The translations under genes and the position numbers were made by a program. From Neorhizobium galegae bv. orientalis str. HAMBI 540 (GTDB lineage: Bacteria; Pseudomonadota; Alphaproteobacteria; Rhizobiales; Rhizobiaceae): 64,000 bases of DNA. The notes beneath the pieces were generated by a model, which made no database searches, was not told the DNA's origin, and worked only from the letters and a program-made list of their open reading frames with translations. Shown here piece by piece: positions 8,329 through 26,763 of the stretch. The stretch spans positions 1,736,001 through 1,800,000 of the forward strand of contig NZ_HG938354.1 of NCBI RefSeq assembly GCF_000731315.1. Direction: 5' to 3'. Every line of letters starts with the position of its first letter. Position 1 is the first letter of the stretch.

Positions 8329-8481
8329 GATCCTAACCTCGATGCGATGAAAATGCCGGCGCTGGGGATGAGAAGAAGAATAGCCGCCGGGCTTGCGCCC
8401 TGCGCCAAAAAAGGCCAGAAATCCGGCTTATTCCCCTCCCCGCCGTTCCTCGATGCTGGCGGTGTTCTCTCTCTCGGGAGC

Positions 8482-8525
8482 GGATTATGCGCAAATTCGG
8501 CGGGGCCGCCAGAGAAGGATTATGC
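8482..8525. promoter_or_regulatory. Divergent control region with direct repeat GGATTATGC
   Basis: The 201-bp gap between the GH4 gene and the AraC gene must hold both promoters. It contains the 9-bp direct repeat GGATTATGC at 8482-8490 and 8517-8525, 35 bp apart, the second just before the AraC start. AraC-family regulators often bind direct repeats near their own genes, so this could be an operator. Clear -35/-10 boxes were not found. Confidence 0.3.
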
Positions 8526-8529
8526 TTTC

Positions 8530-9438
8530 ATGGGTAATTCTATGCTGCGGGATTTAATCGAGCGGGGGCCGGTCATGCGGACCGTGTCGTTGCCGCGGGG
8601 CCGGCAGACTTTGCACACGATGCCGACCAGCACCGGCTACGAAATCCGCACGGATGCAACCTACGATTGGGATGGACGCAAACGCGGTCAGACGCCATTC
8701 ACTGTGCTCCAGCATACGATCGGCGGCGCTGGCAACCTCAGATACGACAACCGTGAGCTGCGGGTGAAGGAAGGCGAAACCCTGTTGGTTCTCGTCCCGC
8801 ATAACCATCGCTATTGGCTGGAGGATGGCGGCCGATGGGAGTTCTTCTGGATCTCGATGAATGGCGACGAAGCGCTTCGCATTCACCGCTCCGTCCTCGC
8901 GGTAACCGGCCCGATCCTCAAGCTGCAGCCGCGCACCATCGAGCATCTGGCCGATTGCAGCCTGCGTCTCATCAATGGCGCGGAGACCCCAGGCCGTGCA
9001 TCGGCCATCGCCTACGAAGCGGCGATGGCGCTCTATGACGACGTCTTCGGTTCGCATCCGATCTTCAGCGAGGAATACCGGACGATGCAGCATGTCATCG
9101 GCCACATCGTGATCAATCTCGAGCATCCGCTGCCGGTCGAGGAGCTAGCCAAGGTCGCGGGCCTCAGCCGAGCGCATTTCTCACGCATCTTCGCCGCCAG
9201 CGAAGGCGTTCCGCCGGCCGAATTCGTCCTGCAAAAGCGCCTGGAGCGCGCCATCAAGCTCTTGACCAAGACCGACGGCATGCCGGTAAAGGAGGTGGCA
9301 ATCCGCTCGGGCTTCCGGGACGCAAACTACTTCTCCAAGGTCTTCCGCCGTGTCTACGGCACCAATCCCACCGAATTCCGCACGACCGGCATGTATGCGA
9401 GCGTCGGCAGGGGCGCTGACACCGCACTGCGGCGGTGA
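8530..9438 (+). CDS. AraC-family regulator of the alpha-galactoside operon
   Basis: A 302-residue one-component regulator. The N-terminal half is a cupin-like sensor (LRVKEGETLLVLVPHNHRYW). The C-terminal 100 residues hold two helix-turn-helix motifs: VEELAKVAGLSRAHFSRIF and VKEVAIRSGFRDANYFSKVF, followed by the AraC family end FRRVYGTNPTEFR. It is divergent from the GH4-led operon and is probably its inducer-responsive activator, as AraC-type regulators are for agp/mel genes in rhizobia. The ATG at 8530 has AAGGA 10 bp upstream; a second ATG at 8542 is also possible. No terminator was seen after it. Confidence 0.85.
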   Translation: MGNSMLRDLIERGPVMRTVSLPRGRQTLHTMPTSTGYEIRTDATYDWDGRKRGQTPFTVLQHTIGGAGNLRYDNRELRVKEGETLLVLVPHNHRYWLEDGGRWEFFWISMNGDEALRIHRSVLAVTGPILKLQPRTIEHLADCSLRLINGAETPGRASAIAYEAAMALYDDVFGSHPIFSEEYRTMQHVIGHIVINLEHPLPVEELAKVAGLSRAHFSRIFAASEGVPPAEFVLQKRLERAIKLLTKTDGMPVKEVAIRSGFRDANYFSKVFRRVYGTNPTEFRTTGMYASVGRGADTALRR

Positions 9439-9604
9439 CCCTCGACCTATCTTTCCGCCTCTTAGGAGAGCTTCGGATACCAGGCCGGCCCGAGTGCCTT
9501 GATCCATCCGGACGCCCACGACGTGCCGGCATCTCGAAACGGCCTTGACGGGAAACCACCTGTTTTACAGTCCTGTGACAGAAATGAAAGAAAGCTGGAA
9601 AACT

Positions 9605-9622
9605 CTGTAACCGGCCTGACAC
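9605..9622 (+). promoter_or_regulatory. Possible PHO box upstream of the phosphodiesterase operon
   Basis: The 18-bp sequence CTGTAACCGGCCTGACAC has two 7-bp half-sites spaced 11 bp apart and resembles the rhizobial PhoB box (consensus CTGTCAT-N4-CTGTCAC). It lies 69 bp before the GTG start of the phosphodiesterase gene, in a 252-bp gap that otherwise shows no gene. Three consensus positions differ, so this is a candidate only. It would fit a phosphate-regulated organophosphate importer. Confidence 0.35.
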
Positions 9623-9690
9623 GATAGCGCTCTAAGGAACCGTAAACGCCTTCGCACCTGCGGAAGGTACTTGCGAGACCGGAGACTGCC

Positions 9691-10521
9691 GTGAAGATCA
9701 TCCAGATTACCGATACCCATTTCAGCCCGGAAAAGCCGCATTTCAACGGCAATTGGGCGCCGCTGCTGAACTGGATCGAGGATACCCGGGCCGATCTCAT
9801 CATCCATACCGGGGATCTGACCGTCGATGGCGCCGATAAGCCGGGTGACATCACTTTCTGCCTGGACCTGATGCGGCAGACTTCGATCCCGATGCTGATC
9901 CTGCCGGGCAATCACGATGTCGGCCACCTGCCGGGCTCCGAGCAGCCGGTCAATGCCGAGCGCCTCAAGCGCTGGCGGGACCTCGTCGGAGAGGACCGCT
10001 GGTTCGAGGACACCAACGGCTGGCGTTTCATCGGCCTCAACTCACTCCTGCTCGGTCATGAGGACGACGAGGAGGAAGCCCAGTTCGAATGGCTGCGCGA
10101 AACCCTCGAAGAGCGTCGCGGCCGTCGCATCGCGCTGTTTGCCCACAAGCCGCTGTTCGTCGACGAGCCGCACGAGGGCGACACGGGCTATTGGAGCGTG
10201 CGCCCGGCCCAGCGCAAACGCCTCTACGACCTGATCGCCGCCCATGACGTGGCGCTCTTTGCGAGCGGCCACCTGCACTGGGCCTGGCAGGGCCGGTTCG
10301 AGAACACCGCCCTCACCTGGGGTCCGTCGGCCGCCTTCATCCTCGACAAACTGGTGCGCGAAATGCCGGGCGAGCGGCTGGTCGGCGCGGTCGTGCATGA
10401 ATTCGGCGACGGCGTCGAGAGCGAGATCGTCGCCGTGCCCGGCATGACGGCCTATGTCCTCGACGAGGTCATCGAGGAAGTCTATCCGACCAGCGCCAAG
10501 CAAACGGAGAGCGCCGAATGA
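9691..10521 (+). CDS. Metallophosphoesterase, class III phosphodiesterase (GpdQ/CpdA-like)
   Basis: A 276-residue calcineurin-like phosphoesterase with all family motifs in order: DTH (residues 8-10), TGD, PGNHD, AHKP and SGHLH. These residues bind the dinuclear metal centre. The class includes cAMP phosphodiesterase CpdA and the glycerophosphodiesterase GpdQ, which is about 274 residues. The GTG start has GGAG 6 bp upstream. The stop overlaps the next ATG (ATGA), so it is the first gene of the Ugp-like transporter operon. That linkage suggests it cleaves an imported phosphodiester rather than cAMP; this is inference. There is no signal peptide, so the enzyme acts in the cytoplasm. Confidence 0.85.
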   Translation: MKIIQITDTHFSPEKPHFNGNWAPLLNWIEDTRADLIIHTGDLTVDGADKPGDITFCLDLMRQTSIPMLILPGNHDVGHLPGSEQPVNAERLKRWRDLVGEDRWFEDTNGWRFIGLNSLLLGHEDDEEEAQFEWLRETLEERRGRRIALFAHKPLFVDEPHEGDTGYWSVRPAQRKRLYDLIAAHDVALFASGHLHWAWQGRFENTALTWGPSAAFILDKLVREMPGERLVGAVVHEFGDGVESEIVAVPGMTAYVLDEVIEEVYPTSAKQTESAE

Positions 10522-11687
10522 CCGCCCTTTCGCTTCGCGGTATCGAAAAATCCTTCTCCGGCAACCCGATCCTCAAGGGCGTCAGCCTCGATGCCGGTCC
10601 GGGCGAATTCATCGCCCTTGTCGGCCCTTCCGGCTGCGGCAAGAGCACGCTCTTACGCATCCTCGCCGGCCTCGAAAGCGCTGACGCCGGCGAAATCATG
10701 CTCGGCGACCGCGACCTGTCGCCGGTACCGGCGGCAGACCGCAACATTGCCATGGTTTTCCAGTCCTACGCGCTTTATCCGCACCTGACGGCGGCGCAGA
10801 ACATCGCCGTGCCGCTGGTCATGCGCAAGCTGACGCGGGCGCAGCGCCTGCCGCTGATCGGCCCGCTGATGCCCGGCCAGCGCAAGGCGGTCGCGGCGAT
10901 CAAACGCGACGTGCGCGAGATGGCGGTGTCGCTGAAGATCGACCACCTGCTCGATCGCAAGCCCGGCCAGATGTCCGGCGGCCAGCGCCAGCGCGTCGCG
11001 CTTGGCCGCGCCATGGTGCGCCGCCCCTCCGTTTTCCTGATGGACGAACCGCTTTCCAACCTCGACGCCAACCTGCGCGTCCATGCTCGCGGCGAGATCG
11101 TCGAATTGCACCGCCGCGCCGGCGTGCCGACGCTCTACGTCACCCATGACCAGGCGGAAGCGCTTTCCATGGCAGATCGCGTCGCCGTGATGATCGGCGG
11201 TTCGCTGCTGCAGCTCGCCTCGCCGCAGGTGATCTACGACGATCCGGCCAATATCGAGGTGGCCCGTTTCATCGGCCAGCCGCGCATCAACCTTTTCCCG
11301 TCGCAGATCGGGGCCGATGGCACGATAGCGTTCGGCGATATCCGGGTCGGATTACACCGTGAGACGGTCGCAGCCGGCGCGCCGGTGACGATCGGCATTC
11401 GGCCGGAATTCATCCGCGTGTCCCGCAGCGGCCAGCAGGGCCTGCCGGCACGCATCGACCGCATCGAGTTCCTGGGCTCCGAGATCATCCTCTATTGCCG
11501 CCTGGATGCGATCGGCGAAACGGTTGTCGCCAAGCTTTCTCCGACTGAGGGCGCCGGTCTTGCCGCCGGCATGCCGGTGCGCCTCGAGTTCTCAGCCGAT
11601 CGCCTCTTCGTCTTTGCCGAGAACGGCCGCCGCCTGCCCTCGACACCGGTCGATACCGCCACCATGCGGGAGACCGCCCATGGCTGA
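10518..11687 (+). CDS. ABC transporter ATPase, UgpC/MalK type
   Basis: A 389-residue ATPase of CUT1 importers. It has Walker A GPSGCGKST near residue 37, Q-loop FQSYALYPH, signature [15 protein letters not shown], Walker B VFLMDEPLSNLD and the switch histidine in VTHDQAEA. The C-terminal 140 residues form the regulatory TOBE domain. An insertion of about 25 residues after the Q-loop (RLPLIGPLMPGQRK) is longer than in UgpC or MalK. It is coupled by ATGA overlap to the phosphodiesterase upstream and by an 8-bp overlap to the permease downstream, so it works with the importer made by the next three genes. Confidence 0.92.
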   Translation: MTALSLRGIEKSFSGNPILKGVSLDAGPGEFIALVGPSGCGKSTLLRILAGLESADAGEIMLGDRDLSPVPAADRNIAMVFQSYALYPHLTAAQNIAVPLVMRKLTRAQRLPLIGPLMPGQRKAVAAIKRDVREMAVSLKIDHLLDRKPGQMSGGQRQRVALGRAMVRRPSVFLMDEPLSNLDANLRVHARGEIVELHRRAGVPTLYVTHDQAEALSMADRVAVMIGGSLLQLASPQVIYDDPANIEVARFIGQPRINLFPSQIGADGTIAFGDIRVGLHRETVAAGAPVTIGIRPEFIRVSRSGQQGLPARIDRIEFLGSEIILYCRLDAIGETVVAKLSPTEGAGLAAGMPVRLEFSADRLFVFAENGRRLPSTPVDTATMRETAHG

Positions 11688-16024: not shown

Positions 16025-16912
16025 TTATGCGTGCAATGCTGCCGTGAGCCAGGCAACGGCTCTGTCATTGGCAACCGTTCGTCGAGCCCTGAGTGGCAGC
16101 AGGATATTATATCGCCCGTCAGCCTTGTACGTCAGATCATTTAGCGCGACCAACGTTCCGGCATCAAGAAACGCCTGAACGAGCGCGCCCCAGCCAAGTG
16201 CTACCCCCTGGCCATTACACGCGGCGAATATCGTTTCGGTATAATGGCTAAATCTCAAGGACGGCTTGAGATCGAAGGATGCTCCGATCTGGTCAAGCCA
16301 TTGAGCCCACGAAAACCACAACGGGTCGGAACTGTGAGTTTCGATATACTCGTCTGTCGAGGATAGCGGGCCTGATTGTCTGCGTTTGAGATAATCGGGC
16401 GAACATACGGGCGTTATGAAATCGTCTTTTGAAGCAATGACCGTCCCATCGTTAAACGGCGGTATTCCATAACGAATGGCAATGTTTATCTCACCGCTAT
16501 CGAGATCGATTTTTTCATCCTGGGATACGACACGCACCTGGATCCCGGGGTTTTGGGAACGGAAGTCGGCCAGACGCGGAAGCAGCCAGAAAGACGAAAA
16601 CGCGATCGTCGCGCCGATGGTGACGACATCCTGGCCGGACGTTTTGATCGCATCGACCGTCTCCGCAATATTGGAAAGGCTCTGCGCCAGCGACGCTCCC
16701 AGAATGCGACACGCAGGCGTAGGTTCGATCGCGCGATGTTTACGCACAAACATTGGCTGCCCCAATTCTTCCTCAAGCAAAGCAATCTGCCGGCTTACGG
16801 CCGCCTGTGTGACGCCGAGTTCGGTCGCTGCCGCGGTAAAGCTCTTTCTGCGCAAAACTGCTTCAAGCATGAGCAGCGCAGTCAAGGATGGCAGCCGTTT
16901 ACGAAACTGCAT
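16025..16912 (-). CDS. LysR-family regulator (GcvA-like), divergent from the Rieske gene
   Basis: A 295-residue LysR-type regulator. The winged helix-turn-helix is at residues 18-45 (SFTAAATELGVTQAAVSRQI), followed by the effector domain (INIAIRYGIPPF, VALGWGALVQAFLDAG). The pattern resembles GcvA/AmpR-type members. It is divergently transcribed from the Rieske oxygenase gene across a 112-bp gap, the usual layout for a LysR regulator and its target, so it probably activates the demethylase genes when the betaine is present. Local GC (about 53% in the one 60-bp row counted by hand) is lower than in the preceding Ugp-like operon (60% in one row). Confidence 0.9.
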   Translation of the reverse strand: MQFRKRLPSLTALLMLEAVLRRKSFTAAATELGVTQAAVSRQIALLEEELGQPMFVRKHRAIEPTPACRILGASLAQSLSNIAETVDAIKTSGQDVVTIGATIAFSSFWLLPRLADFRSQNPGIQVRVVSQDEKIDLDSGEINIAIRYGIPPFNDGTVIASKDDFITPVCSPDYLKRRQSGPLSSTDEYIETHSSDPLWFSWAQWLDQIGASFDLKPSLRFSHYTETIFAACNGQGVALGWGALVQAFLDAGTLVALNDLTYKADGRYNILLPLRARRTVANDRAVAWLTAALHA

Positions 16913-17024
16913 TGTCCCGGCCTCAATCCATTACTTTTCATTATGCCAACGTAACAATTTATGCCGTTGAACGACTTGCATGGCAAGAGCACTCTTGTCT
17001 GAAAGCAGGCAAAGAGGTTTTTCA

Positions 17025-18278
17025 ATGCTGAACAGACTTGCGTCCTCGATCTCGTCACTTTTGGACGCGCGTGCCGACGGGCATGCTCTTCCAGCGGGCC
17101 TGTATACCCGGTCAGACGTGTTCGAAGCCGATATGGACGTCTTCTTTCGTCGGCACTGGATCTGTGTCGGACTTGAATGCGACGTGCCCGAGCCCGGCGA
17201 CGCTGCGGTTATCGACATCGGCAAAACCAGCCTCATCCTGCTGCGCGACGATGACGGCGAAATCCGCGTCGTGCACAACGTCTGTCGCCACAGGGGCTCG
17301 CGCCTCCTCAATCCCGGCAAGACGATCGTCTCGAAGCTGGTCTGTCCCTATCACACCTGGACATACGAGCTCAGCGGGGAGCTGAGTTATGCACCCCATA
17401 TGGGCAAGAGCTTCGACAAAGAGTGTCACAGCCTGAAGCCCGTGAACTTCAAGTCGATCAGCGGCCTCATCTATGTTTGCCTTGCCGACAATCCGCCGAA
17501 GGACATTGCTCGGCTCGAGTTGGCGATGACCGAGCGCCTGGCACCCTACGATGTTCCTAACTCCAAAGTCGCATTTGAAACCGATGTGATCGAGCACGGC
17601 AACTGGAAGCTGACGATGGAGAACAATCGTGAGTGTTACCATTGCTCGGCAAACCACCCGGAACTTTGCGTCTCTTTCGTCGATCTGGATTTCGGTTTCG
17701 ATCCCGAGACACTTAGCCCGGAGGACAGGGCGCAGGCCGGAGAGCATCTTGCTCTCTATGAAGAGCGCATCCTTCAATGGACAGCAGACGGCTACCCATC
17801 CGCCGCCATCGAACAACTCGTCGATTGCGAGACCAATTTCAGGACGCAGCGCCTTATCATTTCCGGTGCGGGCGAATCCCAGACCCCGGACGCCACGGCG
17901 GCATCATCCAAACTTTTAGGAACGATGACCCGCAAGGACCTCGGCGATATGCATCTCTGGGGCCATAACAGCTGGAACCACTTCATGGGTGACCATGCCA
18001 TCGTGGCGATAGTCATTCCAATTTCGCCCGACAAGACTCTGGTGCGCACGAAGTGGCTCGTTCACAAGGACGCCGTCGAAGGCGTGCACTACGATCTTGA
18101 GAAGTTGACGAACGTCTGGGTGGCGACCACGGATCAGGACGCAGAACTCGTCGCGCGCTCCCACGCCGGCGTGGAAGACCCTGCCTATGTGCCCGGTCCC
18201 TATTCGCCATTCTCGGAGACGAATCTCGACAAGTTCGCCACCTGGTACATCGATCGGATGCGTGCGCATGGATATTAA
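17025..18278 (+). CDS. Rieske non-haem iron betaine demethylase (GbcA/Stc2-like)
   Basis: A 417-residue ring-hydroxylating-type oxygenase alpha subunit. The Rieske cluster ligands are C87-x-H89 and C107-x2-H110. The mononuclear iron site follows in NRECYHCSANHPEL (H206, H211). In this family GbcA removes a methyl group from glycine betaine and Stc2 removes one from stachydrine (proline betaine), releasing formaldehyde. The ATG at 17025 has GAGG 9 bp upstream. The stop overlaps the start of the cognate reductase by 11 bp, so the two are co-translated. Nearby StcD-like, ProC-like and ProXWV genes support a quaternary-amine substrate; which betaine is not determined by sequence alone. Confidence 0.85.
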   Translation: MLNRLASSISSLLDARADGHALPAGLYTRSDVFEADMDVFFRRHWICVGLECDVPEPGDAAVIDIGKTSLILLRDDDGEIRVVHNVCRHRGSRLLNPGKTIVSKLVCPYHTWTYELSGELSYAPHMGKSFDKECHSLKPVNFKSISGLIYVCLADNPPKDIARLELAMTERLAPYDVPNSKVAFETDVIEHGNWKLTMENNRECYHCSANHPELCVSFVDLDFGFDPETLSPEDRAQAGEHLALYEERILQWTADGYPSAAIEQLVDCETNFRTQRLIISGAGESQTPDATAASSKLLGTMTRKDLGDMHLWGHNSWNHFMGDHAIVAIVIPISPDKTLVRTKWLVHKDAVEGVHYDLEKLTNVWVATTDQDAELVARSHAGVEDPAYVPGPYSPFSETNLDKFATWYIDRMRAHGY

Positions 18279-19353
18279 GAGCGCTTTCGCATCTGTCGAT
18301 CAGATCGAGAAAACTGAATTCTGGAACCGGGATTTGGACGAGGATCTGGTTTGCATCGACGTCCACCAGGAAACGCACGATGTTAAAACATTCACGTTCG
18401 CGTCTTCCCTTGGGAAAAGGTTCGCCTTCAAGGCCGGGCAGTATTTCCTGTTCGATCTCGAAATTGGCGCAGAGCCCGAAAGTCGCTGCTACAGCATATC
18501 CTCCTCGCCGCAGCGTACCAACGCGTTTTCAGTCACCGTGAAACGTGTGCCAGGGGGTAAGATTTCCAACTGGTTTCATGACAACGTCACAGCTGGCTCA
18601 ACGATGAAGGGCAATGGACCGCTCGGACATTTCATCCGGTCCAATGCCAAGAAACTGCTGCTTCTGTCTGGTGGATCGGGGATCACGCCAGTCATGTCGA
18701 TGATACGCGAACTGGCGGATACCTTTGAACCCATCGACGTCGTGTTCATGCATGCGGCGCGAAGCCCCAAAGACTTGATCTTTCGGGAGGAACTCGCCTG
18801 TCTGGCGAATAAAGGAAAGCAGCTCCGCCTGCATTTCCTACCTGAGATCACCGCCGGCGAAGCCCATTGGCCTGGCCTTACCGGGCGCATCTCGGCAGAC
18901 TACATGAAGCTGGCCGTGCCTGACATTGCAGAGCGTGTCGTCATGTGCTGCGGCCCAGCGCCATTCATGGCTGCTGCCCGCGGGATTGCCGCAGAGCTCG
19001 GCGTTCCGTCGTCCAATTACATCGAGGAGAGCTTCGACGCTGCCGTCATCGACGACATCGACCTTCCGGTTGTCCAGGAAGCCGCCACGAGAATGTTCAC
19101 GGTGGAGTTCGCCAAGCAAGTTCGTAAGATCGATGTCTCAGGCGAGCAGACCATCTTGTCCTGCGCGAAAAAAGCTGGCGTGAAACTGCCCTCTTCATGT
19201 TCCAACGGAGTGTGTGGCACCTGCAAATCAAAACTGGTGACCGGATCCGTCGACATGAACCACAATGGCGGGATCCGCCAGCGGGAGATCGATGCCGGGT
19301 TATTCCTGCCCTGCTGTTCGAAGCCACTCAGTGACCTCGTGGTCGACCGATAG
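18268..19353 (+). CDS. Ferredoxin-NAD reductase partner of the Rieske demethylase (GbcB-like)
   Basis: A 361-residue electron-transfer protein with three parts: an FAD domain (RCYSISSSPQR), an NAD(P)H domain (LLLLSGGSGITPVMSM and CCGPAPFMAA), and a C-terminal plant-type [2Fe-2S] ferredoxin with CSNGVCGTC and a later CC. It passes electrons from NAD(P)H to the Rieske oxygenase encoded immediately upstream. The ATG lies inside the last codons of the upstream gene. The arrangement matches GbcAB and the stachydrine demethylase pair in rhizobia. Confidence 0.88.
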   Translation: MDIKSAFASVDQIEKTEFWNRDLDEDLVCIDVHQETHDVKTFTFASSLGKRFAFKAGQYFLFDLEIGAEPESRCYSISSSPQRTNAFSVTVKRVPGGKISNWFHDNVTAGSTMKGNGPLGHFIRSNAKKLLLLSGGSGITPVMSMIRELADTFEPIDVVFMHAARSPKDLIFREELACLANKGKQLRLHFLPEITAGEAHWPGLTGRISADYMKLAVPDIAERVVMCCGPAPFMAAARGIAAELGVPSSNYIEESFDAAVIDDIDLPVVQEAATRMFTVEFAKQVRKIDVSGEQTILSCAKKAGVKLPSSCSNGVCGTCKSKLVTGSVDMNHNGGIRQREIDAGLFLPCCSKPLSDLVVDR

Positions 19354-19403: not shown

Positions 19404-20009
19404 TCAATGTTTCCGCTGGTCGGGCAAAAGTGCCCAGAATGCGAAGAGAGGCTCCTCGCCCGAGCGCATCGCGTGCCGGATTCCAGGTGGATTGTAGAAG
19501 GAGCCACCCATGCCGGGCGTGAACCAACCGGAATCGCCCTGCATGAATTCGCCATCCGAGAGGACAAGATAGATTTCCTCCGGTGCATGATCGTGGTCCG
19601 GATACCGCACGTTCGGCGCCATCAGGGTCGCGCCAAGCCACACGTCCGAACGGTCCTCCAGGCCGCCCGGCCCGACAATCATGGTATTGGCGTGGCTCAT
19701 CGGGAAATTTGCACTGGCCGAATTGTCATAGGTCGAGCGACCGTTCCATTCGAGCTGCGCCTCCAACGCTGCGAAGCGCCGGAGCAAGATGTTCAACGAG
19801 GGTTGCTCCGCCTTTGCAGCCAAGACACCCTCCAAATACAGGCCGCAAACCGGAAGCCGCTTTGCGATATTCACCCGCTGCGGCAGCGATGTTTGCAGGT
19901 GCGCAAATATCTGCGTCAGTGACTGCCGGCCCCGTGAATCCTCGGCAAGCTGATCGAACGCGACGAACGCGGCATTCAGAAAATCCTGCAAGGCTTCGCT
20001 GCGAGCCAT
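19404..20009 (-). CDS. Cupin protein of the DMSP-lyase-like family (DddQ/DddL-like fold)
   Basis: A 201-residue single-cupin protein. The cupin metal motif is RYPDHDHAPEEIYLVLSDG (H139, H141, E145, Y147) and the second motif is NPPGIRHAMRSGEEPLFAFW (H179). The layout of metal ligands, the long helical N-terminus and the FWALL end match the dimethylsulfoniopropionate (DMSP) lyase superfamily. The start codon lies 4 bp after the StcD-like stop, so it forms one operon with that flavoprotein. DMSP lyase activity cannot be assumed: many family members act poorly on DMSP, and the neighbours suggest a betaine of nitrogen rather than sulfur. The real substrate is unknown. Confidence 0.72.
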   Translation of the reverse strand: MARSEALQDFLNAAFVAFDQLAEDSRGRQSLTQIFAHLQTSLPQRVNIAKRLPVCGLYLEGVLAAKAEQPSLNILLRRFAALEAQLEWNGRSTYDNSASANFPMSHANTMIVGPGGLEDRSDVWLGATLMAPNVRYPDHDHAPEEIYLVLSDGEFMQGDSGWFTPGMGGSFYNPPGIRHAMRSGEEPLFAFWALLPDQRKH

Positions 20010-20012
20010 GGT

Positions 20013-22049
20013 TCAAATATCCTTGGCAAGCCGCAATGCGTCATAGATCGCTGCATGCGTGTTGCGAGCAGCGACCGCGTCGCCAATCCGAAAGAGCTGA
20101 TAGGTGCCAGCGGGATTGCGCTCGGTCGTTTGCGGCGCGCCGGAAATTAGCTGGTCGTAGGAAACTTCACCGAGGTTCTTCGAGCCGGGCTTCATCTCGA
20201 AATAAAGGTCGTCCAATGGGATCGTACCGTGATTGATGACGATCTGGTCGATGGTCCGTTGCTTTTCAACGCCGCCGTAGTCGCTGCCGACATGGGCAAT
20301 GATCTGGTTGCCGCTCTTTTCGGCCGATTGCAGCCGGTAGGTAACGGTGAAGGTGACGTCGAGTTTCTGCAGCGAGCGCATGTAGGGAACAAGGTTCATC
20401 GCCATGACCTCCGGCGCGAAGGAGCGGTCGGGCGTCATGATCTCGACCCTGGCCCCTGTCTTGGCGATGAATTCCGCGGCCTGCAAGCCGGCATGGTCGC
20501 CCGCGTCGTCGAAGATCAGCACATTGCTGCCCGGCTTGACGTCGCCCGAAATGATATCCCAGGAGGAAACGACAAGCTCATTTCCCTTCGACAGAACCTC
20601 GGTATGCGGTAGTCCACCTGTCGCGATGATAACCACATCGGGCTCTTCCGCCGCGATCACATCGGCATCCGCCCAGTTGTTGAAATGGAACGTGACACCA
20701 AGCTTCTCGCATTGGCTCATCCGCCAGTCGATGATGCTGATCATCTCACGGCGGCGTTCGCTCTGCGCGGTGAGGCGGATCTGCCCGCCGGGATTGTTGG
20801 CCGCCTCGAAGACCACGACCGCATGACCCCGCTCGGCGGCCACGCGCGCCGCTTCGAGGCCAGCCGGCCCGGCTCCGACAATGACCACCCTCTTGCGGGT
20901 GTCGGCTTTTGCAATGGTATGCGGCATGGTCTGTTCGCGACCGGTTGCGGCATTGTGGATGCAAAAAGCCATCCCGCCCTGGTAGATGCGGTCGAGACAG
21001 TAATTCGCGCCGACGCAAGGGCGTATGTCCTCCTCGCGCTTTTCGATAATCTTGCGAACGATGTGCGGATCCGTCATGTGGGCGCGCGTCATTCCGACCA
21101 TGTCCACTTTGCCCGCGGCAATGGCGTGCCGTGCCGTCGCGACATCCGGGATTTTTGCCGCATGAAAGGTCGGAAATTGGGTTGCGGCGCGGATTTCACC
21201 GGCAAAATCGAGATGTGGCGAGTTCGCCATGCCCTGGATCGGAATGACGTCCGTCAGGCCGGCATCCGTGTCGATGTGACCTCGGATCACGTTCAGATAG
21301 TCGATCAGACCGCTGTCGCGCAGCCGTCGCGAGATCTCGATACCGTCAGCTTTTCCAGTACCTCCGGGGAGACATTCGTCGGCCGTGTAGCGAACGCCGA
21401 GGATGAAATCGTCTCCGACGCGCTCGCGCATCGCCTTGAAGACGTCGAAACAGAACCGCATGCGATTTTCGAGCGAGCCCCCATATGGCCCGTCCAGTTC
21501 ATTGGTGAGCGGCGAATTGAACTGATCGATCAGGTGACCGTAAGCCTCCAGCTCGACTCCGTCCATGCCGCCCGCCTTCATACGCTCGGCTGCGTCCGCG
21601 AAGTCTCTGATGATGCGCTCGATGTCCCAATCCTCCATCTTCTTCGGGAAGGATCGGTGCGACGCTTCACGATGATGGGACGGCGCGACCACCGGCAGCC
21701 AATCGCCCTTGTCCCAACGGGTGCGCCGGCCGAGATGGGTCAGCTGGATCATGATAGCCGCGCCTTCTTCGTGCACGGCATCGGTCATTTCCCGGATCCA
21801 GGGAACGATCTCGTCCTTATAGGCGAGCAGGTTATTAAAGACCGGTGGACTGTCTTTCGACACCGCTGCCGATCCCGCCGTCATTGTCAGCGCAACGCCC
21901 CCTTTCGCCCGCTCCACGGTATAGGCTCGGTAACGTTCCTTCGGCATGCCGTCCTCAGGATAGGCGGGCTCATGCGATGTAACGATGATACGGTTGCGTA
22001 GGGTCAGATGCTTCAGTGTGTAGGGCTGAAGGAGGGGATCGTTCGACAT
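20013..22049 (-). CDS. stcD: N-methylproline/dimethylglycine demethylase-type flavoprotein (StcD/DgcA-like)
   Basis: A 678-residue Old Yellow Enzyme-type oxidoreductase with an FMN TIM-barrel (residues 1-335), an iron-sulfur segment (C345, C351, C363) and a C-terminal dinucleotide domain starting VVIVGAGPAGLEAARVA near 388. The architecture matches trimethylamine dehydrogenase relatives; StcD and DgcA act in demethylation of N-methylproline and dimethylglycine. It would carry out the step after the Rieske enzyme. The iron-sulfur motif reads CVGANYC, without the second cysteine seen in the classic CxxCxxxC form. It is divergent from the TetR gene. StcD is favoured over DgcA because a ProC-like gene is present, but this is not decisive. 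Confidence 0.72.
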   Translation of the reverse strand: MSNDPLLQPYTLKHLTLRNRIIVTSHEPAYPEDGMPKERYRAYTVERAKGGVALTMTAGSAAVSKDSPPVFNNLLAYKDEIVPWIREMTDAVHEEGAAIMIQLTHLGRRTRWDKGDWLPVVAPSHHREASHRSFPKKMEDWDIERIIRDFADAAERMKAGGMDGVELEAYGHLIDQFNSPLTNELDGPYGGSLENRMRFCFDVFKAMRERVGDDFILGVRYTADECLPGGTGKADGIEISRRLRDSGLIDYLNVIRGHIDTDAGLTDVIPIQGMANSPHLDFAGEIRAATQFPTFHAAKIPDVATARHAIAAGKVDMVGMTRAHMTDPHIVRKIIEKREEDIRPCVGANYCLDRIYQGGMAFCIHNAATGREQTMPHTIAKADTRKRVVIVGAGPAGLEAARVAAERGHAVVVFEAANNPGGQIRLTAQSERRREMISIIDWRMSQCEKLGVTFHFNNWADADVIAAEEPDVVIIATGGLPHTEVLSKGNELVVSSWDIISGDVKPGSNVLIFDDAGDHAGLQAAEFIAKTGARVEIMTPDRSFAPEVMAMNLVPYMRSLQKLDVTFTVTYRLQSAEKSGNQIIAHVGSDYGGVEKQRTIDQIVINHGTIPLDDLYFEMKPGSKNLGEVSYDQLISGAPQTTERNPAGTYQLFRIGDAVAARNTHAAIYDALRLAKDI

Positions 22050-22092: not shown

Positions 22093-22112
22093 GGAATGTA
22101 CAGCTGTGTCAA
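22093..22112 (-). promoter_or_regulatory. Promoter/operator of the stcD-cupin operon
   Basis: Read on the minus strand the element is TTGACA-N4-TGTACATTCC. TTGACA is a perfect -35 box; 17 bp later TTAGCC could serve as a weak -10. The TGTACATT motif sits in the promoter spacer, where a repressor would block RNA polymerase. The same arrangement occurs in the opposite direction at 22139-22158. Confidence 0.55.
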
Positions 22113-22138: not shown

Positions 22139-22158
22139 TTGACATTGATGTACATTTC
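22139..22158 (+). promoter_or_regulatory. Promoter/operator of the TetR-proC operon
   Basis: The element TTGACA-N4-TGTACATTTC mirrors the one at 22093-22112. ATGTACAT is itself an 8-bp palindrome. It lies 38 bp before the TetR start. The matched pair in a divergent gap next to a TetR gene suggests both promoters are repressed by this TetR protein. Confidence 0.55.
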
Positions 22159-22195
22159 ACTTGAAGTGCGGTTATGAATTTGTTAGGAAGTGCCT

Positions 22196-22825
22196 ATGGA
22201 ACAGGCGGTAAGTGACAGCGGCTGGCGTGGTTCTCAGGAGGGTTGGCTTGAAGCCGCCTATGAAGCGCTGCTTGAATCCGGCGTAGATTCAGTGAAGATC
22301 TTGCCGCTTGCCAAGAAACTGGGCCTATCGCGGACAAGCTTCTATTGGTTCTTCAAGGATCGGGAAGAACTGCTGAGCGCGCTCATATTGCGCTGGAGGG
22401 ACAAGAACACAGGCAACCTCGTAAAGCAGTCCGAGGCATATGCGGAATCTCTTGCGGAAGCGATGCTGAACGTCTTCGATTGCTGGCTCAACAAAGATCT
22501 CTTCGACTCCCAATTCGAGTTTGCAATTCGCAGTTGGGCACTGCAATCTCCGGAAATTCAGGTTGAAGTGCAGCAGGCTGATCTAGCCCGAATAGACGCT
22601 TTGAGCCGTATGTTCGTGCGGTTCGGCTTTGACGAAGGGCCTGCGGACGTTCGCGCGAGAACAACTTATTTGGTCCAGATCGGCTACATCTCCATGCAGT
22701 CCACCGAGGATATCGGACTGCGTATGAAGCGCATTCCCGAATACATCGCAATCTACACCGGTCAGATCCCGCAACAGCGAGAACTCGATCGCTTCTACGC
22801 GCGGCACGGCTATAAACAAGGGTGA
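22196..22825 (+). CDS. TetR/AcrR-family regulator of the betaine locus
   Basis: A 209-residue regulator with an N-terminal helix-turn-helix (VKILPLAKKLGLSRTSFYWFFKDREELL, residues about 34-60) and a C-terminal all-helical ligand domain. The ATG at 22196 has AGGA 8 bp upstream; a GTG at 22190 is a less likely start. It is divergent from the StcD-like gene, and twin operator-like motifs lie between them. It is followed after 7 bp by the ProC-like gene. It probably represses both directions until the betaine or a demethylated product binds. Confidence 0.88.
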   Translation: MEQAVSDSGWRGSQEGWLEAAYEALLESGVDSVKILPLAKKLGLSRTSFYWFFKDREELLSALILRWRDKNTGNLVKQSEAYAESLAEAMLNVFDCWLNKDLFDSQFEFAIRSWALQSPEIQVEVQQADLARIDALSRMFVRFGFDEGPADVRARTTYLVQIGYISMQSTEDIGLRMKRIPEYIAIYTGQIPQQRELDRFYARHGYKQG

Positions 22826-22832
22826 GAGCAAG

Positions 22833-23642
22833 GTGGAAGCTGGCAGGGGCTGGAGAATTGGCGTGATCGGCGGCAACGGCTGGCTGGGCAGCGCCCTTGC
22901 TGGCGCGGTGCTGGACGCCGGCTTCGTGAAGCCCCAGGACCTGTCGCTCTCTTATCGCAGCAAGCTGCCGGATCGTTTCGGCGAGGCTTTCTGGACATTG
23001 GACAATCAGGCCCTCGCCGACCGCTCGGATGTCGTCATTCTCTGCGTCCGCCCCGCTGACTGGCGTGACCTTAACGTCGATGTGAAAGGCAAGCTGCTGA
23101 TTTCCGTCATGGCAGGCGTTCCGTTGGACTCGCTGAGCGACCATCATCAGACCGCCTGTGTCGTTCGTTCGTTGCCGAATGCAGCGGTCGAGATCCGCCG
23201 ATCCTACACGCCGTGGATCGCGACCCCTAAGGTCAGTGAAGAAGAACGCACATTTGTCCGAGCCCTGTTCGAGACCTGCGGTGTTCAGGATGAAGTGCGC
23301 AGCGAAACCGATATGGACTATTTCACCGGCCTGTCCGGATCCGGCCCCGCCTTTCCGGCGCTTCTTGCCGACGCAATGATGCGAGATGCCCTCTCCCGGG
23401 GCATCCCCGTCGCGATGGCCCGGCGTGCCGTTAACACGCTTATCATCGGCGCGGGGCGTCTCATGGAAATGCATGAGACCTGTCCCACCGAAATCGTGCA
23501 GACCTTCCTCGATTACCGTGGCACCACGGCAGTCGCGATCGAGACAATGCGTGCTGCGGGTTTCGAAACAGCGATTGCTTGCGGACTGACGGCGGCATTC
23601 GAGAAATCGGTGAGTTTGGGAGACGCTTCCAAGCATTTGTGA
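22833..23642 (+). CDS. Pyrroline-5-carboxylate reductase-like protein (ProC family)
   Basis: A 269-residue protein of ProC length. The N-terminus has a Rossmann motif (GVIGGNGWLGSALAGAVL) and the C-terminal dimer domain has the family signature with DYFTGLSGSGPAF. ProC reduces pyrroline-5-carboxylate to proline with NAD(P)H. The GTG start lies 7 bp after the TetR stop. Placed in a betaine-demethylation locus it is more likely a dedicated catabolic or salvage imine reductase than the housekeeping proline enzyme; the substrate could be a cyclic imine formed from the demethylated betaine. This is inference. Confidence 0.8.
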   Translation: MEAGRGWRIGVIGGNGWLGSALAGAVLDAGFVKPQDLSLSYRSKLPDRFGEAFWTLDNQALADRSDVVILCVRPADWRDLNVDVKGKLLISVMAGVPLDSLSDHHQTACVVRSLPNAAVEIRRSYTPWIATPKVSEEERTFVRALFETCGVQDEVRSETDMDYFTGLSGSGPAFPALLADAMMRDALSRGIPVAMARRAVNTLIIGAGRLMEMHETCPTEIVQTFLDYRGTTAVAIETMRAAGFETAIACGLTAAFEKSVSLGDASKHL

Positions 23643-23702: not shown

Positions 23703-24704
23703 ATGAATAAGCTTTTGGCTTCGGGTTGCGTGCTAGTCGGAGTGTTCGCCGGCGCATCGGCGGCAAGTGCTGCCGGGTGCGGCCGCGTCACGATCGCGAG
23801 CATGAATTGGCAAAGCGCGGAGGTCATCTCCAATCTGGATAAGTTCATTTTAAACGAAGGTTACGGCTGCCAGGCGGAGATCACGGTTGGAGACACCGTG
23901 CCAACCATCACCTCCATGGCGGAAAAGGGCCAGCCTGATATCGCTCCGGAGGCCTGGATCGACCTGCTTCCCGACGTGGTCGCGAAAGGCACGCAGGAAG
24001 GTCGGATCGTAAAGGTTGGGTCTCCGCTGCCGGACGGTGGCAATCAGGGCTGGTGGATCCCGAAATATGTCTCGGACGCACATCCGGACATCAAGACCAT
24101 TCCGGATTTGCTGAAGCATCCCGAACTCTTCCCGGGTGAGGAAGACCCAAGCAAAGGCGCAATCCTCAACGGTCCTCAGGGGTGGGGTGGCACCGTCGTG
24201 ACAACCCAGCTGTTCAAGGCGTTCGGCGGGGAAAAGGCTAAGTTCACGCTGATCGACACCGGATCGGCAGCCGGTTTGGACGGCGCTATCGCAAAGGCAT
24301 ATGAGCGGAAGAAGAGTTTTGCCACTTACTACTGGGCGCCGACGGCACTCCTCGGCAAATACCCGATGGTGAAACTTGAGGCAGGCGTTAAAAACGACCC
24401 GGCTGAATGGAAGCGTTGCAACACAGTTGCCGATTGCCCGGATCCGAAGCCGAATTCTTGGCCGATCGATACGATCGTCACCCTGGTCGCCAAGCCCTTT
24501 TCGGAAAAAGCAGGACCCGAGGTGATGACCTATCTCGAAAAACGGTCCTGGAGCAACCAGACCATTGGCAAACTAATGGCATGGATGACGGACAATCAGG
24601 CAAGCGGTGAGGATGGCGCCAAGCATTTTCTGAAGGAAAATAAGGACATCTGGACCAAGTGGGTTTCAACGGACGCCGCCAAGAAGATCGAGGCAGCGCT
24701 CTAA
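23703..24704 (+). CDS. Glycine betaine/proline betaine-type binding protein (ProX/OpuAC family)
   Basis: A 333-residue periplasmic binding protein with a signal peptide ending near ASA at residue 23. Two cysteines near the mature N-terminus (AGCGR and GYGCQ) could form a disulfide. Aromatic stretches NQGWWIPKYV and TYYWAPTALLG supply the Trp/Tyr cage that binds quaternary ammonium groups in this family. It has GGGAACGG upstream of the ATG. It feeds the permease and ATPase encoded next, after a strong hairpin. Confidence 0.9.
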   Translation: MNKLLASGCVLVGVFAGASAASAAGCGRVTIASMNWQSAEVISNLDKFILNEGYGCQAEITVGDTVPTITSMAEKGQPDIAPEAWIDLLPDVVAKGTQEGRIVKVGSPLPDGGNQGWWIPKYVSDAHPDIKTIPDLLKHPELFPGEEDPSKGAILNGPQGWGGTVVTTQLFKAFGGEKAKFTLIDTGSAAGLDGAIAKAYERKKSFATYYWAPTALLGKYPMVKLEAGVKNDPAEWKRCNTVADCPDPKPNSWPIDTIVTLVAKPFSEKAGPEVMTYLEKRSWSNQTIGKLMAWMTDNQASGEDGAKHFLKENKDIWTKWVSTDAAKKIEAAL

Positions 24705-24713
24705 TAGGCCCTT

Positions 24714-24740
24714 GGGGCGATGTGCCAAACACATCGCCCC
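24714..24740 (+). promoter_or_regulatory. Intergenic hairpin after the betaine-binding-protein gene
   Basis: A perfect 11-bp stem GGGGCGATGTG with a 5-nt loop starts 9 bp after the binding-protein stop and lies before the permease gene. It is followed by TTCC rather than a T-run, so it is more likely an mRNA stabiliser or partial terminator than a full terminator. Confidence 0.6.
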
Positions 24741-24803
24741 TTCCGCTTGCCGTCAAAAGAAGAAAAAGACCTCACACGGCTCTTTCCAGAGAAAGGGAAC
24801 CGA

Positions 24804-25691
24804 ATGGAATGGTTTTATAAATTTCCACATATGGATGACGACGCACTTCGCAACTTGAAGAAAGCGATCGACGAGGGATTTCGGGCTTTCACCCGCGCCT
24901 ATGGCGATACGATCGAAAGCATGTTTTCGCCTCTGCAGAGCTTTCTGCTGGCGGCCGATCGCTTTATGACGCAGACCCCGTGGCCGATCATCACGGCGAT
25001 CATCCTCATTATTGCGTGGTTTGCGAGCCGAAGTGTCAAAATCGTGCTGAGCTGTCTGATCACGCTCCTGCTGATCGGTTATTTCGACATGTGGACCGAC
25101 ACGATGCGTACGGTCGCGATGATCTTTGTCTGCACCGTCCTGTCGATTGCCGTCGGTCTGCCGATAGGCATCCTCATGGCGCGCTCGAATGGCGTCAAGC
25201 GAGTCGTCAACCCGATCCTCGACGTGATGCAGACCATGCCGAGTTTCGTTTATCTCATTCCGGTCGTCATGCTGCTGGGCATCGGCCGCGTCCCGGGGCT
25301 CATCGCCGTGGTGATCTACGCCATACCGCCAATGATCCGGCTGACCGATCTCGGTATCCGCCTCGTCGACAAGGATGTTCTGGAGGCTGCCGACGCCTTC
25401 GGCACCTCGGAGACCCAGAAGCTTTTCAAGGTGCAACTGCCGCTTGCCCTGCCTACGATCATGGCGGGGATCAACCAGACGATCATGATGGCACTGGCGA
25501 TGGTGGTGGTCGCCTCGATGATCGGCGTCCAGGGGCTTGGCCAGCCGGTGCTGAAGGCAATCGCCAACCAGTATTTTACCCTCGGCGTGTTCAACGGCCT
25601 CGCAATCGTTGGAATCGCCATAATCTTCGATCGGGTCAGCCAAGCCTATGGCAAGCGGCTCCAGAAGCATCGGGAGATCGTTCATGGCTGA
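24804..25691 (+). CDS. Betaine ABC permease, ProW type
   Basis: A 295-residue permease. An N-terminal soluble stretch of about 60 residues precedes six or seven helices; the BPD domain includes DVMQTMPSFVYLIPVVMLLGIG and the EAA-like loop EAADAFGTSETQKLFKVQLP. These are hallmarks of ProW/OpuAB. The ATG at 24804 has AAAGGGAA upstream. The gene overlaps the ATPase start by 8 bp. It should import the betaine consumed by the demethylases encoded next to it. Confidence 0.9.
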   Translation: MEWFYKFPHMDDDALRNLKKAIDEGFRAFTRAYGDTIESMFSPLQSFLLAADRFMTQTPWPIITAIILIIAWFASRSVKIVLSCLITLLLIGYFDMWTDTMRTVAMIFVCTVLSIAVGLPIGILMARSNGVKRVVNPILDVMQTMPSFVYLIPVVMLLGIGRVPGLIAVVIYAIPPMIRLTDLGIRLVDKDVLEAADAFGTSETQKLFKVQLPLALPTIMAGINQTIMMALAMVVVASMIGVQGLGQPVLKAIANQYFTLGVFNGLAIVGIAIIFDRVSQAYGKRLQKHREIVHG

Positions 25692-26763
25692 GCAAGGTTT
25701 GGGCGGCATCGCAATCCGCAATCTCTACAAAATCTTCGGCGCCAACCCCGCCGCCTATGTCCATGCCGTCCGCAACGGTCTAACGAAGACAGAGCTTAAC
25801 GATGCACATGGCCATGTGCTCGGGCTGTGCGATATCAATCTGGACATCAAGTCAGGCTGTATTCAGGTCATCATGGGCCTGTCGGGATCGGGCAAATCCA
25901 CGCTCATCCGCCATATCAACCGCCTCATCGATCCGACCGCGGGTGAAGTGCTGGTGGACGGGGTGGACGTCGTTAAGATGAACAAGGACGAACTGCGAAA
26001 CTTTCGGCGTCATCAGACGGCAATGGTCTTTCAGAAGTTCGCCTTGCTGCCACACCGGAGCGTGGTCGACAACACCGTTTTCGGCCTTGAGGTTCAGGGC
26101 ATCGGCCGCTCCAAAGCGATCGACGTCGCAATGAGATGGCTGGAGCGTGTTGGGCTGAAGGGGTTCGAGCATAAATACCCCAACCAACTGTCTGGAGGAA
26201 TGCAGCAGCGCGTGGGACTTGCTCGCGCCCTATCGAACGATGCGCCTGTCCTGCTGATGGACGAAGCCTATTCCGCACTCGACCCGCTCATCCGCACGGA
26301 CATGCAGTCCGTTCTTCTCGACATCCAGAGAGAGATCAAGAAAACGATCGTGTTCATCACACATGATCTCGATGAGGCTCTCCGGCTGGGAGACCAGATC
26401 GCAATCCTGCGCGACGGCGAGGTCATACAGCAAGGTACAAGCCAGGACATCGTCCTGAGGCCGGCGGATCAATATGTGGCCAATTTCGTCAAGGAAGTGA
26501 ACCGCGGACGGGTCGTGCAGGTCGAAGCGATCATGGCTCCCTTACGTTCCCGGACCGGGGGGGAGCAGCCCACCATTCCAGCAAATGTCACGATCGAAGA
26601 AGCGATACGCACGCTGGTCTCTGCCCCTGACGGCGACGTGACCGTTGTCGATCCATCAGGCAAGCCGGTCGGAACCGTGAGTTTCCGACAACTGGCAGGG
26701 GCTATGGTCAATTCCCGTGACGTCGAGCACCGGTCTTTCGACGCGCCGGCGATCGTCGCTTAA
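25684..26763 (+). CDS. Betaine ABC ATPase, ProV type
   Basis: A 359-residue ATPase with the ProV-style N-terminus (IRNLYKIFGANPAAY), Walker A GLSGSGKST, FQKFALLPHRSV, signature LSGGMQQRVGLARAL, Walker B VLLMDEAYSALD and a CBS-like C-terminal tail (TVVDPSGKPVGTVSFRQLAG). In ProV/OpuAA proteins the C-terminal CBS region senses ionic strength; here only one short CBS-like segment is evident, so osmotic gating may be reduced, as in catabolic betaine importers. Last gene of the betaine importer operon. Confidence 0.9.
   Translation: MAEQGLGGIAIRNLYKIFGANPAAYVHAVRNGLTKTELNDAHGHVLGLCDINLDIKSGCIQVIMGLSGSGKSTLIRHINRLIDPTAGEVLVDGVDVVKMNKDELRNFRRHQTAMVFQKFALLPHRSVVDNTVFGLEVQGIGRSKAIDVAMRWLERVGLKGFEHKYPNQLSGGMQQRVGLARALSNDAPVLLMDEAYSALDPLIRTDMQSVLLDIQREIKKTIVFITHDLDEALRLGDQIAILRDGEVIQQGTSQDIVLRPADQYVANFVKEVNRGRVVQVEAIMAPLRSRTGGEQPTIPANVTIEEAIRTLVSAPDGDVTVVDPSGKPVGTVSFRQLAGAMVNSRDVEHRSFDAPAIVA

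Follow-up and report, generated by a model that had tools for sequence, protein, structure and literature searches.

The 64,000-nucleotide (nt) stretch of Neorhizobium galegae bv. orientalis str. HAMBI 540 analysed here (the window; contig NZ_HG938354.1, positions 1,736,001 to 1,800,000) belongs to the second of the two contigs that make up a genome of 6.46 Mb. It encodes a cupin of the dimethylsulfoniopropionate (DMSP) lyase family, which is placed directly behind a putative N-methylproline demethylase of the old yellow enzyme (OYE) type. The cupin probably serves a TetR-controlled unit for the catabolism of proline betaine (stachydrine-type), by dehydration or C2 epimerisation, a reading to which we give a probability of about 0.55 from sequence comparisons. 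The genes and features of the locus were as follows.

16025..16912, minus strand: LysR-type regulator, divergent to the Rieske pair (Pfam and NCBIfam matches)
16980..18278, plus strand: Rieske oxygenase, GbcA-like by profile matches; best solved-structure matches 4qup, 3vca and 3n0q
18187..19353, plus strand: reductase partner of the Rieske oxygenase, GbcB-like by profile matches
19404..20009, minus strand: DMSP-lyase-like cupin of 201 amino acids (PF16867), with Y136, H139, H141, E145 and Y147 in motif 1 and H179 in motif 2
20013..22049, minus strand: OYE-type flavoprotein of 678 amino acids, StcD/HpbA-type N-methylproline demethylase by similarity
22095..22112, minus strand: operator-like site TTGACA-N4-TGTACATT, the copy nearer to the flavoprotein gene
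22139..22156, plus strand: second, inverted copy of the operator-like site, on the tetR side of the gap
22190..22825, plus strand: TetR-family regulator, divergent to the flavoprotein-cupin pair; presumed binder of the twin site
22833..23642, plus strand: ProC-like reductase with the fold of pyrroline-5-carboxylate reductase (161.4 bits; proC equivalog cut-off 196.75)
23703..24704, plus strand: ProX-like betaine-binding protein (OpuAC; Pfam)
24720..25691, plus strand: ProW-like permease (Pfam, NCBIfam)
25648..26763, plus strand: ProV-like ATPase (Pfam, NCBIfam)

The cupin frame starts 3 nt beyond the end of the flavoprotein frame, both on the minus strand, and judged from this layout the two genes are very likely co-transcribed. 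The first-pass annotation had described the cupin as built into a betaine demethylation locus, joined to a StcD/DgcA-like flavoprotein and near a Rieske demethylase pair and a ProXWV importer. This description held throughout: the Rieske pair (16980-19353) and the importer (23703-26763), both on the plus strand, were recovered by profile matches, and the StcD/HpbA-type context was conserved. The matches of the Rieske pair to NCBIfam GbcA and GbcB were strong and lay under the equivalog cut-offs (406.7 of 670 bits and 318.2 of 500 bits), so that by these cut-offs the pair fell outside glycine betaine monooxygenase GbcA/GbcB. The listed reductase frame overlaps that of the oxygenase, and its true start is probably further downstream.

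Two conserved boxes, inverted copies of each other, were found in 32 aligned gaps between tetR and the flavoprotein gene: AATGTACA-N4-TGT and TTGACA-N4-TGTACATT. The 18-base pattern occurred without mismatch twice in the whole genome, both times in this gap (22095-22112 and 22139-22156), and one further copy, with one mismatch, was located on the other contig. It was present without mismatch in 46 of 223 loci, duplicates counted. No such site preceded the Rieske pair when up to three mismatches were allowed, and this pair has its own LysR neighbour. The simplest reading would be a divergent unit under TetR control, with the flavoprotein-cupin pair on one side and tetR, the proC-like gene and proXWV on the other, and the TetR protein presumably binds the twin site.

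The flavoprotein was 75.1% identical over its full 678 amino acids to a Paracoccus aminophilus protein annotated as N-methyl-L-proline N-demethylase HpbA. With so high an identity along its whole length to a named protein, it groups with StcD and HpbA, and by similarity it would be an N-methylproline demethylase of that type. StcD, the N-methylproline demethylase of stachydrine catabolism, is located on pSymB (PMC12239276). The pSymB of Sinorhizobium meliloti 1021 encodes a single full-length homologue of the flavoprotein (87% identical), which is probably StcD, by elimination rather than direct identification. The cupin lies directly behind it, and the TetR and ProX genes are divergent. The tetR gene is likewise divergent in P. 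aminophilus, where a proC-like gene is also present; unlike the window, the 19.5-kb stretch of S. meliloti 1021 had no match to the proC-like, proW and proV genes. In S. meliloti R14 (L037, pSymB), the flavoprotein and tetR frames were each split in two, and both were single frames in strain 1021 (L155).

Among 218 genomes sampled from the family, the cupin query (E up to 1e-40) found 18 places in 16 genomes. At fourteen of these (13 genomes; one cupin truncated), the cupin immediately followed the flavoprotein gene in the same orientation, a linkage that exceeds chance. The remaining four (two in G744, one each in G774 and G844) were not behind a flavoprotein and showed 40–49% identity. The flavoprotein at an identity of at least 80% was found at 40 places in 39 of the genomes, 14 of them followed by the cupin. 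Since the cupin stood behind the flavoprotein at 14 of 18 cupin places but only 14 of 40 flavoprotein places, it is a specific yet optional partner. No constant substitute gene was seen behind the flavoprotein in 22 cupin-less loci, based on crude gene calls.

The order and strand of the pair were identical in 29 of 29 loci, which were picked for holding both genes (the window, L002-L004, L034-L039, L070-L074, L078, L130, L155, L176-L185 and L196). They were drawn from Rhizobiaceae and two other families (f50 and f112), and they include near-duplicates (L037/L155 and L038/L196) as well as L037 with its split flavoprotein. Locus L178, the second flavoprotein-cupin copy of its genome (G878), gave a partial cupin match (residues 1-134).

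The sole Pfam match of the cupin at E up to 0.001 was PF16867 DMSP_lyase (180.7 bits, cut-off 27), and a profile search matched none of the NCBIfam models. In the alignment, the predicted metal ligands H139, H141, E145 and H179 were at the positions that had been given for them. Y136 and Y147 were likewise present, and their equivalents are essential in DddQ (PMC4437653). The cupin thus carries the superfamily signature, which consists of two His and one Glu in motif 1, one His in motif 2 and two Tyr in motif 1 (PMC4437653, PMC5395565). It also has the DddQ-type fold (VIA-align), with 17–22% identity to DddQ on the structural alignment. Each of the 17 OYE-linked cupins of the tree set, like their 7 nearest relatives, retains the six catalytic residues, which were also invariant across a 61-sequence alignment. 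The protein is not placed among unrelated cupins but stays in the DMSP-lyase-like superfamily, of which it appears to be a catalytically intact member.

The closest named relatives of the window cupin come from Neorhizobium. The 17 OYE-linked cupins formed one clade in a quick tree of 96 rows (Shimodaira-Hasegawa-like approximate likelihood ratio test 95). In a careful tree of 38 rows, 14 of them grouped together (92/93) and the other three were unresolved; a single origin of the OYE-linked cupins is likely. The cupins of G264 and G844 formed a group in the careful tree (96/89). In the aligned set, H106, N108, E118, R120 and R135 were shared by every OYE-linked cupin (17) and by 7 near relatives. 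In the next group of 14 cupins, H106, N108, E118 and R120 were common to 10 or 11 and R135 was found in one, and the remaining groups were mostly aromatic at 106 and 108 and hydrophobic at 118. Residues 106 and 108 share one strand in the cupin model and may line the pocket.

The family match, the six catalytic residues and the fold would also suit a genuine lyase of DMSP or dimethylsulfoxonium propionate (DMSOP), with DMSP imported through ProXWV as a betaine analogue and split into dimethyl sulfide (DMS) and acrylate. Importers of the ProXWV type could take DMSP, and in L075 the neighbour of a closely related cupin gene resembles propionyl-CoA synthetase. We nevertheless regard this explanation as improbable. 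The best DddQ match in the PDB reached only 32.3 bits by phmmer, with an E of 6.7e-07 for the Ruegeria pomeroyi protein, which is far from the E below 1e-30 required in one DddQ survey, although that survey used another database and set-up (PMC5395565). Three DddQ proteins were split from the cupin by a very long branch in the careful tree (100/100), and they have F, F and Y at position 106 and C, W and Y at position 108. The DddQ of Ruegeria and Roseovarius thus differ from the window cupin, with its His, Asn, Glu, Arg and Arg at 106, 108, 118, 120 and 135 and, unlike DddQ, its linkage to an N-demethylase and a betaine importer. No PrpE-like or MDR-reductase-like gene (medium-chain dehydrogenase/reductase) was found in the 29 pair loci at E up to 1e-10, which counts against DMSP cleavage; the queries came from L075 and L079 rather than from reference PrpE or AcuI, and L074, L078, L180 and L181 are short contigs. 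Rhizobium leguminosarum J391 served as the host of a DMSOP-lyase screen, as Rhizobium "cannot catabolize DMSOP" (PMC10686828). The whole cluster is carried by Rhizobium johnstonii 3841, formerly R. leguminosarum. We take J391 to derive from strain 3841, and the failure of this host speaks against DMSP lyase activity, although an uninduced operon would look alike. The suggestion that the locus also handles DMSP was therefore not supported.

In L075 (7069-9585), the cupin is convergent to the propionyl-CoA-synthetase-like gene (AMP-binding, ACAS_N), an arrangement that could fit acrylate use, and this protein is a candidate true DMSP lyase. PF16867 was matched above the family cut-off in 62 of 297 genomes sampled from the order, and such proteins of soil and root-nodule bacteria often carry the database name DMSP lyase. 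A divergent PF16867 branch made up 22 rows of the 96-row tree. Its L083 cupin (7486-10723) adjoins enolase-superfamily and SBD_N/NBD_C genes, and the DMSP lyase label is doubtful for this branch too, as judged from L083, the only annotated locus.

The retained active site constrains the chemistry. In DddK, a DMSP/DMSOP lyase of SAR11, the metal has been described to hold the carboxylate while a tyrosine takes the C-alpha proton and the sulfur group leaves C-beta. H56, H58, E62, H96 and the base Tyr64 of DddK correspond to H139, H141, E145, H179 and Y147. Stachydrine, N-methylproline and glycine betaine carry their nitrogen on C-alpha, so the amine cannot leave in this way, and trigonelline has no proton of the needed kind alpha to its carboxylate. 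A DddK-style elimination is possible only for beta-substituted substrates, such as the 3-hydroxyproline types, carnitine and beta-alanine betaine. The first-pass annotation had also considered an unrecognised elimination on a nitrogen betaine or a demethylated product; this fails for stachydrine, glycine betaine and trigonelline, but the leading idea is still that the cupin carries out novel chemistry on a compound derived from a betaine. The retained catalytic residues, together with the nitrogen on C-alpha, suggest either that the leaving group of the substrate is attached to C-beta or that reprotonation follows.

In the mechanism that we propose, the metal bound by H139, H141, E145 and H179 would coordinate the carboxylate of the substrate, and Y147 would remove the C-alpha proton as Tyr64 does in DddK. 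The enolate could then lose a group from C-beta, most simply the hydroxyl of a 3-hydroxyproline or 3-hydroxyproline-betaine substrate, and the resulting pyrroline would be reduced to proline by the ProC-like protein. Alternatively, reprotonation on the other face would amount to C2 epimerisation and give the demethylase the right isomer. From the mechanism and the neighbouring genes, dehydration is a tentative assignment and epimerisation, taken singly, an unlikely one; dehydration is given a small lead for two reasons, the link to ProC and the presence, in some loci, of epimerases from other families. Dehydration or epimerisation of hydroxyprolines and proline betaines has been described in other protein families (PMC5144071, PMC4113996, PMC11961199). 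The hydroxyproline betaine 2-epimerase HpbD and the 3-hydroxyproline dehydratases LhpI, LhpJ and LhpL share the proposed chemistry on a proline-type substrate; unlike the cupin, they belong to the enolase, aconitase-X and proline-racemase families.

The ProC-like gene was present in 12 of the 14 flavoprotein loci with the cupin and in 6 of the 21 without it (Fisher 0.0016), and ProX in 13 of 14 and 6 of 21 (Fisher 0.0003), as counted by eye from annotated loci and uncorrected for relatedness. The 21 cupin-less loci comprised 18 of the family sample at an identity of at least 82%, G561 and G337 of the class sample, and G744. In G844, a ProC-like gene lies ~33 nt before the cupin relative on a 9.5-kb contig without the flavoprotein, and the arrangement in G774 is similar. 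The cupin relative of G264 stands after proXWV and before genes of the dihydrodipicolinate synthase (DHDPS) and DAO families, with a ProC-like gene ~26 kb away on the same contig. In G295, of the same genus, a proline-racemase-family gene is followed by a ProC-like gene in a hydroxyproline-type operon.

The longer clusters of Agrobacterium tumefaciens 1D1609, R. leguminosarum WSM1325 and R. johnstonii 3841 add electron-transfer flavoprotein (ETF) subunits and glutathione-dependent formaldehyde genes, which would be expected if N-demethylation released formaldehyde. The two Rhizobium clusters further contain genes for DHDPS, an aldehyde dehydrogenase and an FAD oxidoreductase; that of strain 3841 also includes putA, a Rieske pair and a gene annotated as 4-hydroxyproline epimerase. 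An enolase-superfamily (MR_MLE) gene occurred together with the cupin in L182, and weaker MR matches were found in L036, L071 and L073. Given these genes and the epimerase of strain 3841, the idea that the cupin simply replaces the HpbD epimerase was unsupported. Ldh_2 proteins were also considered as the pyrroline-2-carboxylate reductase and rejected, as those of L133 and L038 best matched malate/lactate/ureidoglycolate or sulfolactate dehydrogenase models.

Another explanation is that the cupin releases an amine from a beta-betaine, for example trimethylamine and acrylate from beta-alanine betaine. This would be the exact nitrogen twin of DMSP cleavage, and in two other groups (L149 and L099) the cupin has genes for an MTTB-type methyltransferase and an OYE protein in its vicinity. 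We consider it highly improbable, since the adjacent demethylase is of the N-methylproline type by similarity, the 29 pair loci had no PrpE-like or MDR-reductase-like gene, and MTTB genes are so common in several of these genomes (up to 11 or more) that the link is weak. MTTB matches were near the cupin in 7 of 88 loci (L092, L098, L099, L111, L117, L122 and L149) and in 3 of 20 further loci (L205, L209 and L210), as well as in L203, which was chosen because its coordinates already suggested such proximity. For the genomes with MTTB counts, a rough hand estimate gave ~0.6 expected and 2 seen, and a general link between the superfamily and MTTB is a lead only. The L149 (3806-10850) and L099 cupins, of two other branches, are near an MTTB-family methyltransferase, an OYE paralogue and an MmgE/PrpD protein, with a CoA-transferase also in L149 and a DAO oxidase also in L099; these loci possibly represent another betaine-type demethylation unit.

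Several observations weigh against a proline-betaine enzyme acting by dehydration or epimerisation. The cupin was missing at 26 of the 40 flavoprotein places, 18 of which were inspected in retrieved sequence, so it is dispensable for the unit, and no cupin lies beside hpbA in P. aminophilus. In L160 (G848), the importer, the proC-like gene and the Rieske pair were kept and the cupin, ETF and frmA genes were absent. Among the other cupins of the tree set, the seven closest to that of the window (L075, L076, L077, L079, L081, L133 and L135) had no flavoprotein gene in their retrieved stretches. Nothing in the analysis points to a specific 3-hydroxylated substrate, and the ProC-like protein, whose supposed role is pyrroline reduction, falls short of the proC cut-off. 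The 4-hydroxyproline epimerase of strain 3841 and the enolase-superfamily gene of L182 make a C2 epimerase less needed. The L160 cluster resembles that of Ensifer adhaerens minus the cupin, ETF genes and frmA between the flavoprotein and gfa, and the loss looks like a deletion.

The absence of the cupin from 26 places would also be consistent with a protein without turnover of its own in the pathway, which might bind a ligand, protect or repair the flavoprotein, or act on an unrelated metabolite. Operons of the R. leguminosarum type contain a second, degenerate cupin (L038:14337-15032, L070:6504-7319, L176:6541-7254 and L196:16441-17136, the last assigned by position and annotation only). It lacks E145, Y147, H179 and Y136, with H141 also lost in L038 and L070 and kept in L176, and it retains H106, E118, R120, R135 and W192. 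This second cupin is likely a pseudoenzyme partner or binding protein, and a binding role may thus exist in the family. For the window cupin itself, however, the conservation of all six catalytic residues in the OYE-linked cupins, their relatives and the 61-sequence alignment makes such a role doubtful, and a catalytic function in proline-betaine catabolism is preferred.

The fold, the family and the pathway are already known; the new elements are the conserved position of the cupin within that pathway, where it falls under a common control region, and the reaction implied by this position. The flavoprotein-cupin pair was unreported among the matches listed in the open-licence literature, as far as titles and abstract openings show. 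Marine relatives of this cupin produce DMS, the gas that gives the sea its smell, but in this root-nodule bacterium the gene belongs to a unit that probably breaks down a plant nitrogen compound. The results suggest that the DMSP-lyase-like cupin family has an unrecognised job on land. With somewhat less than even confidence, we propose that the terrestrial "DMSP lyase" cupins form a new enzyme class of quaternary-ammonium (proline-betaine) catabolism, in which alpha-deprotonation by metal and tyrosine would lead to a dehydration or epimerisation new to the family. On this view, the marine DMSP lyases, which have millimolar Km values (PMC5395565), would have branched off from nitrogen-betaine enzymes. 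The idea can be tested in two model strains that have the cupin gene, S. meliloti 1021 and R. johnstonii 3841. Should plant proline betaines be the substrates of the rhizobial branch, the stachydrine pathway used by legume symbionts would gain an enzyme, and the DMSP lyase labels would distort estimates of how much DMS is produced on land.
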